NCBI GenBank assembly: GCA_002255495.1
Contig: NCAP01000001.1
Span: forward strand, 1 to 64,000
Reading direction: 5' to 3'
Source: Rhodospirillales bacterium 20-60-12
GTDB lineage: Bacteria; Pseudomonadota; Alphaproteobacteria; Acetobacterales; Acetobacteraceae
DNA length: 64,000 nt
Shown here: in pieces, positions 18,749-20,152 of the stretch
Layout of the letters: the number at the start of each line of letters is the position of its first letter
How positions within the stretch are numbered: the stretch's first letter is position 1
Made by a program: the position numbers and the translations under genes
Notes under the pieces: model-generated
Databases searched by the model: none
The model's input: only the letters and a program-made list of their open reading frames with translations
What the model was told of the DNA's origin: nothing

Positions 18749-18840
18749 GGAGGGGTGGCCGAGAGGCTGAAGGCGGCGGTTTGCTAAACCGTTATAGGTG
18801 TTAAAACCTATCGTGGGTTCGAATCCCATCCCCTCCGCCA
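18749..18840 (+). tRNA. tRNA-Ser (GCU)
   Basis: A 92-base tRNA including encoded CCA. The acceptor stem GGAGGGG pairs with CCCCTCC, the anticodon stem is GCGGT/ACCGT with loop TTGCTAA (anticodon GCT at 18783-18785), a long variable arm (ATAGG/CCTAT) marks a class II serine tRNA, and the T arm carries GGTTCGAATCC. It reads AGC and AGU codons. An AT-rich stretch starts directly at its 3' end. Confidence 0.97.
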
Positions 18841-19488
18841 ATAAATTTCCACTAACACATTGTTTTAATTCTGTATTTTTTCAATCGTTTAGCGTTTTAA
18901 ATCAAATTTGACACCAAACGGGAATGATTTGGCGTTATACAGGGCGAGATCGTGTTCGGCCGTGCCGACATTTGGTAATCGTTTAGTCATTTGAGGCTGG
19001 GTTACCCTAAAAGCACTTCCCCCGGTGCAAGCGCAGGTGTCGTGAGCTGCATTTGAGGATGAGGGTTTCCTCTTTCATTGCTCGAATCAGCCCGTTATGT
19101 TGCCACAATAGAGAGGCAGGAAACGATGCCGACAACTACTATTTGACCTTTGTTCACGCTGGCGTCGTCGGCCCAAGGTCAGGCAAGTCATCAGATTAGC
19201 AACAGCGCGCTTGCTCAGTTTCGGAGGTACGGTTTCCGCCCCGAACACCTCAGATCACGCCATGCTTTGAACAAATAAACCAGACTCGGATCAGCGACGA
19301 CAATGCCTACCACGACGCGATGGTGCAGCATTGTCTAAAAACGGTAAGCCCCCCCCTATGTGTTTTACTTGCGCGGATTAGAAATTATTTGACACGCGCA
19401 TTGGTCGGCAAGGCCCTTACTGTCGTTACTTTTTACAGTCATATTTCTGAACAATACCAACCAGTTGTAAAACCACATTATTTTTGTT
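18841..19488. other. Gene-free AT-rich region downstream of tRNA-Ser
   Basis: About 650 bases without a convincing gene. The first 100 bases are strongly AT-rich. Around 19290-19340 a short plus-strand stretch reads ISDDNAYHDAMVQHCLKT and may be a gene remnant. ACTGT/ACAGT at 19419-19439 (5-bp arms, 11-base spacer) lies about 50 bases upstream of the sigma-54 promoter and could be an activator site. No integrase or full insertion sequence is visible. Confidence 0.5.
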
Positions 19489-19503
19489 TGGCATCAATCT
19501 TGC
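19489..19503 (+). promoter_or_regulatory. Sigma-54 (RpoN) promoter for the PEP-CTERM gene
   Basis: TGGCATCAATCTTGC matches the sigma-54 -24/-12 consensus TGGCAC-N5-TTGC with one mismatch and exact GG-to-GC spacing. It lies 81 bases upstream of ATG 19584. PEP-CTERM genes are known to be controlled by RpoN with the PrsK/PrsR two-component system in exosortase bacteria. Confidence 0.85.
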
Positions 19504-19583
19504 GTGTCATCAACGTGGGCATGTCGGTTCGAAAAATATAATTTCGGATTGTGCTTGCCTTATGTATCAAACAGGAGTCGTGG

Positions 19584-20135
19584 ATGAAAAAGATTGTTCT
19601 AACGTTAGCTATATTAGCAGGGTTAACGGCGTCTGCGTCAGCCTATGCCGACGTGTATACTCCAGCGACAAGCGTCACTTACAACACGATCGGACGTGAC
19701 TTTACAATAACCGATAATGGCAGCGCCAATATCTATGTTGCTCCGGGCCAGGCTTTTACTTTGACCGGCAACTGGTCTATTGGAAACGTGAACACAAGTT
19801 ATTGCCCATCTTGTGTCATACAGCTCTACCTTGCAGGTATGTCACCTTTGAATGGTCAAGCCGATCTCTTTAGTGGTGAAATCACCCATAATAATATGGC
19901 AAGCGGCTCTTACTCATTGACACTGACTGCGCCAACCACCTCCGGTAATTACTATTATGCCGGTGGCGCTTCAACCTTGAATTACAATTACGTCCCGGTG
20001 AGCGGAGCGCCCAACGCTGATGGCCTGATAAACTACAAAATCAACGTGCCCGAACCTGGCAGTCTCGTTCTTCTCGGGACAGGCCTTCTCTTTCTCGGTA
20101 TGGCAGCACGGAAACGCAAAACGTCAGATATCTGA
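19584..20135 (+). CDS. PEP-CTERM sorting-domain exported protein
   Basis: A 183-residue secreted protein. Residues 1-23 form a Sec signal peptide (MKKIVLTLAILAGLTASASA, then YA-DV). The C-terminus is a classical PEP-CTERM tripartite signal: VPEPGSLVLLG, a hydrophobic helix and the basic AARKRK. Exosortase would cleave at PEP and hand the protein to the outer surface or extracellular matrix. The body is Ser/Thr/Asn/Tyr-rich with a Cys pair in SYCPSCVIQ, and has no known enzymatic domain. ATG 19584 follows AGGAG. Base composition is far lower in GC than neighbouring genes. Exosortase and PrsK/PrsR genes are not in the window. Confidence 0.93.
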   Translation: MKKIVLTLAILAGLTASASAYADVYTPATSVTYNTIGRDFTITDNGSANIYVAPGQAFTLTGNWSIGNVNTSYCPSCVIQLYLAGMSPLNGQADLFSGEITHNNMASGSYSLTLTAPTTSGNYYYAGGASTLNYNYVPVSGAPNADGLINYKINVPEPGSLVLLGTGLLFLGMAARKRKTSDI

Positions 20136-20152
20136 GACTTTAGGCGATTGGT

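Follow-up and report, generated by a model that had tools for sequence, protein, structure and literature searches.

The promoter that precedes a PEP-CTERM gene in the window (the whole stretch of DNA that was analysed, 64 kb in length) is very probably a sigma-54 promoter under the control of PrsR that belongs to the XrtA/PEP-CTERM system, to judge from its sequence and from the genes found with it; bending of the DNA by integration host factor (IHF) is a proposed part of this switch. Three DNA elements, namely motif 1, an IHF-like site and a -24/-12 promoter, are present in conserved order and at conserved positions (Table 1), and all the genes of the proposed switch are present in the genome.

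The window promoter and the sorting system of the genome

Table 1. Parts of the promoter region and the gene downstream, with positions in the window
Feature	Position	Strand	Basis
Sigma-54 (RpoN) promoter TGGCATCAATCTTGC, -24 GG / -12 GC	19489-19503	+	Read from sequence; rpoN in genome
Motif 1, predicted PrsR binding site TGTCGTTACTTTTTACA, consensus TGTCRG-N5-TTTACA	19421-19437	+	Sequence and score
IHF-like site CAACCAGTTGTAA, 7/9 against YAANNNNTTGATW, its first base 31 nt ahead of the TGG of the sigma-54 site	19458-19470	+	Score and position
Predicted start of transcription, 12 nt downstream of the C in GC	19515	+	Inferred from -24/-12 convention
PEP-CTERM gene, 183 aa	19584-20135	+	PF07589, TIGR02595

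The intergenic stretch upstream of the PEP-CTERM gene extends for some 740 bp, back to a tRNA-Ser gene at 18749-18840. Direct reading gives ACTGT at 19419-19423 and, after 11 nt, ACAGT at 19435-19439, and motif 1 scores 14 of 15. A gap of 51 nt separates the end of motif 1 from the sigma-54 site and a further 80 nt lie between the terminal TTGC of that site and the ATG at 19584, which is preceded by AGGAG. From the tRNA gene through the PEP-CTERM gene (18840-20140) the G+C content is approximately 0.45-0.50, compared with about 0.6 in the surrounding DNA, and this low-G+C stretch beside a tRNA gene is possibly an acquired segment.

The product carries an N-terminal signal sequence, read by eye, and a C-terminal VPEPGSLVLLGTGLLFLGMAARKRK, and has the PEP motif, transmembrane stretch and basic cluster of a sorting substrate at this end; it scores 27.8 bits against PF07589 (cut-off 20.7) and 25 against TIGR02595 (cut-off 16). 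No relatives of the 183-aa protein were found in a scan of a collection of genome contigs, a single-sequence structure model was poor (mean pLDDT 39.6), and outside its sorting signal the protein is, as far as its sequence tells, an orphan whose body has no family assignment.

The genome (2.97 Mb in 152 contigs, 94% complete) contains four PEP-CTERM genes, one in the window (contig C5) and one each on C64, C113 and C119. The initial annotation had placed an RpoN promoter in front of a PEP-CTERM gene, which the Pfam and NCBIfam matches bear out, and had expected exosortase, prsK and prsR to lie elsewhere in the genome, where all three were indeed found. Exosortase A (XrtA) is encoded on C74 (TIGR03109, 269 bits, cut-off 208) in a cluster of typical content, in which a deacetylase (TIGR03006), a FemAB protein (TIGR03019) and a Stp1-type glycosyltransferase (TIGR03087) pass their cut-offs and an ATPase (TIGR03015) and an outer membrane protein (TIGR03016) match below theirs. 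On C119 there is a row of genes for PrsT (409 bits, cut-off 312), PrsR (629 bits, cut-off 503), PrsK (467 bits, cut-off 300) and a glycosyltransferase (TIGR03013), every one over its cut-off, and RpoN is encoded on C104 (390 bits, cut-off 277). The genes for IHF alpha and IHF beta are both present and over cut-off; that for IHF beta lies on C113 (13224-13762), just ahead of another PEP-CTERM gene's cassette and divergent from it. An operon for a soluble di-iron monooxygenase lies beside the XrtA cluster (C74, 7044-15218); it encodes two PF02332 hydroxylase proteins, a flavin/2Fe-2S reductase and a Cpn60-type chaperonin and is accompanied by a DhaR-like sigma-54 activator, a gene content that suggests an ability to grow on short alkanes or compounds related to them.

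Motif 1 and the sigma-54 site as a pair

Lone sigma-54-like matches are common, TGGCAYN5YTGC occurring at 64 places in the genome, and an explanation by chance has to be considered for both sequence matches. However, the pair of motif 1 and sigma-54 site in the window scores 1.90 out of 2.00, higher than every one of 2060 dinucleotide-shuffled upstream regions, the best of which reached 1.64, and each of the genome's four PEP-CTERM genes is preceded by the pair, the gap being 51 nt on C5, 62 nt on C113, 51 nt on C119 and 52 nt on C64; the suggestion that the pair would recur before other PEP-CTERM genes was thus confirmed at the remaining three of three. Chance matching as the source of the pair is strongly disfavoured, and its probability may be regarded as very small. 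In a scored scan for the pair the window cassette was the sole place in the 64 kb to exceed 1.62. Throughout the 2.97 Mb of the genome the pattern TTTACA-N42-72-TGGCA-N7-TGC has four matches, of which three precede PEP-CTERM genes and the fourth lies on C24, and a reversed control of the same pattern gave no matches in the whole genome. Beyond the four PEP-CTERM genes, no comparably strong cassette was found in the window, the fetched contigs or 30 other TGGCAYN5YTGC loci.

A total of 103 PEP-CTERM genes from this genome and 16 relatives was tested, and 59 of them outscored the best of the 2060 shuffled regions. In the relatives examined motif 1 takes the form TGTCRG-N5-TTTACA, and the ACTGT-N11-ACAGT described by the initial annotation, which is present where it was reported, is the outer part of this conserved element, which is not a simple inverted repeat. 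Cassettes were found at 58 of 92 PEP-CTERM genes in PrsR-positive genomes compared with one of 12 in PrsR-negative genomes, genes within a genome being non-independent, and it is this co-occurrence that points to a regulatory role for PrsR. The promoter could instead be sigma-54-dependent and driven by another enhancer-binding protein, six of which (NtrC, NtrX, FlbD-like, PspF and two further activators, one of them DhaR-like) are encoded in the genome besides PrsR, and NifA sites (TGT-N10-ACA; PMC6296734) look like motif 1 in its outer bases. However, motif 1 follows PEP-CTERM genes and the presence of PrsR (see also PMC1569441), and control by another activator is considered improbable. A NifA-type site in particular is rejected, as the TGT-N11-ACA spacing is unlike that of NifA and none of the activators examined scored over the NifA cut-off.

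Two relatives are without a PrsR match. In one (G019) there were 15 PEP-CTERM matches, no PrsR over cut-off and a cassette at none of the four genes tested, and in the other (G004) PrsR is absent from the draft, yet one cassette is perfect; control of a different kind may account for this, or contigs may be missing. Beyond the relatives, the strict cassette was found in at least 119 stretches of named genomes and, among the matches listed, it is carried by Acidiphilium rubrum, Acidisphaera, Elioraea and Rhodopila, and also by Massilia, Thauera, Thiobacillus, Sphingomonadaceae and Desulfuromonadaceae. A PEP-CTERM region in a genome of the host's family matches a record of an Acetobacteraceae bacterium without difference over five 200-mers. 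The host thus belongs to the Acetobacteraceae, as had been supposed when the window was taken to extend this type of control to that family, but the advance is a modest one, since the alphaproteobacterium Rhodospirillum rubrum was already in the 2006 set; given that named Acetobacteraceae carry the cassette, the extension is real but unsurprising.

An IHF-like site in the spacer and two classes of spacing

When the spacers were aligned on the sigma-54 site, conserved columns reading YAA-N4-TTGAWW became apparent from 31 nt before the TGG, flanked by A/T-rich sequence on the side where it is expected, and these columns fit the published IHF consensus YAANNNNTTGATW (PMC5963220). In the family set 25 of the 59 spacers have at most one mismatch to the consensus, compared with 2.8 expected from shuffles, and 18 of these lie exactly at -31. 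As the idea of IHF had come from the family set, it was tested on named genomes (a few of the named records being the same genomes as those of the family set) using the pattern YAA-N4-TTGATW at a position fixed beforehand, -31 +/- 1. Among the matches listed, 30 of 81 cassettes scored at least 8/9, compared with 0.32 expected, and 14 were perfect 9/9 matches, compared with 0.01 expected. For the betaproteobacteria alone the figure was 12 of 24 cassettes among the matches listed at 8/9 or better (0.09 expected), and the gamma- and deltaproteobacterial cassettes among the matches listed numbered eight, too few to judge. None of the 29 other TGGCAYN5YTGC sites of the genome reaches an 8/9 match. 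A site for IHF at a fixed place in this switch has apparently not been described before; in the portion of the open-access literature covered by the search, no paper was found that connects IHF, under its short or its full name, with the promoters of PEP-CTERM genes.

Within the genome the promoters on C5, C113 and C119 each have a 7/9 match exactly at -31, and by the same scoring the promoter on C64 has no IHF-like site. That the window site is only 7/9 and that C64 is without one both count against the preferred explanation, and the two mismatches in the TTGATW half of the window site, together with the lack of a middle element at one of the four promoters, would suit a reading in which this element is the site of some other protein, or a mere intrinsic bend or A/T-rich stretch. 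This reading seems unlikely, however, as the conserved columns agree with the published consensus and have the A/T-rich sequence on the side expected for IHF, perfect matches recur at a fixed place far more often than expected, and both subunits of IHF are encoded in the genome.

The spacing of the cassette is also constrained. Among at least 154 distinct cassettes, in the named-genome part of which gaps were sought solely at 46-66 nt, the gap from motif 1 to the TGG was 49-54 nt in 29, 58-66 nt in 120 and longer in five, with no gaps of 55-57 nt, so that there are two classes approximately one helical turn apart. The IHF-like site remains at about -31 in both classes, and it is therefore motif 1 that shifts, by roughly a turn of the helix, while the IHF-like and sigma-54 sites stay in place as a pair. 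Such a shift is a prediction of looping with a face-of-helix constraint.

Proposed mechanism and comparison with known systems

In the mechanism proposed, the membrane kinase PrsK, on sensing a signal, would bring about phosphorylation of PrsR, which would bind motif 1 at a distance of approximately 51 nt from the -24 element, on its upstream side. IHF, bound at the middle site, would bend the DNA such that PrsR could touch the RNA polymerase with sigma-54 and the promoter would open; the PEP-CTERM protein would then be made, exported by Sec and finally processed by the exosortase XrtA. Binding of motif 1 by PrsR, binding by IHF, looping and the standing of the product as an XrtA substrate are what we infer from the arrangement of sites and genes. 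More generally, it is likely that the PEP-CTERM regulons of alpha- and betaproteobacteria have in common a three-part enhancer of fixed geometry, with a PrsR site in one of two helical-phase positions, an IHF site from -31 and a sigma-54 promoter, and that expression of exosortase substrates is therefore IHF-dependent. For floc and biofilm bacteria this amounts to a prediction that their PEP-CTERM regulons depend on IHF.

The closest parallel is the PEP-CTERM region with PrsK, PrsR and PrsT described by Haft et al. in 2006 (PMC1569441), who found a motif 1 of 17 nt with TTTACA at its end, a spacer with a mean of 62.8 nt (S.D. 10.6, range 32-92) and a 17-nt sigma-54 motif 2, and who proposed PrsR as the probable binder of motif 1. 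This arrangement precedes 99 of 167 proteobacterial PEP-CTERM genes and was seen in 13 proteobacteria, among them R. rubrum with its single PEP-CTERM gene. The window has the same order of motif 1, spacer (51 nt, within their range), sigma-54 site and start codon, the last of which lay on average 71 nt from motif 2 in their set. Their account gives a mean spacer and no conserved spacer element, whereas here there are an IHF-like site and two helical-phase classes. The pepA gene of Aquincola tertiaricarbonis (PMC9850573) is likewise a PEP-CTERM gene with a -24/-12 promoter and an enhancer-like sequence upstream; its promoter has been mapped and its transcription needs RpoN1, and plasmid-borne prsK or prsK-prsR did not complement the mutant. 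It differs in coming from a betaproteobacterium, in having an experimental start site and in that IHF is unmentioned.

The order of activator site, IHF site and -24/-12 promoter is that of known sigma-54 promoters at which IHF assists, for instance those of Vibrio hcp/tssD2 (PMC5963220) and of the CbrB targets of Pseudomonas (PMC6296734), and the interval from IHF site to sigma-54 site is 16 bp in V. fluvialis (PMC5963220) compared with 18 nt here. Those promoters involve other activators and other genes, and the action of IHF, inferred here, was shown there by mutants. The switch itself, by which a two-component system activates surface proteins that an exosortase handles, has been known since 2006 and the window promoter belongs to it, with the consequence that an orphan surface-protein gene can be assigned to a defined regulon. 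Within the literature searched it is the IHF-like site and the two spacing classes that appear to be new, and together they turn a loose pair of motifs into a precise architecture for annotating PEP-CTERM regulons.
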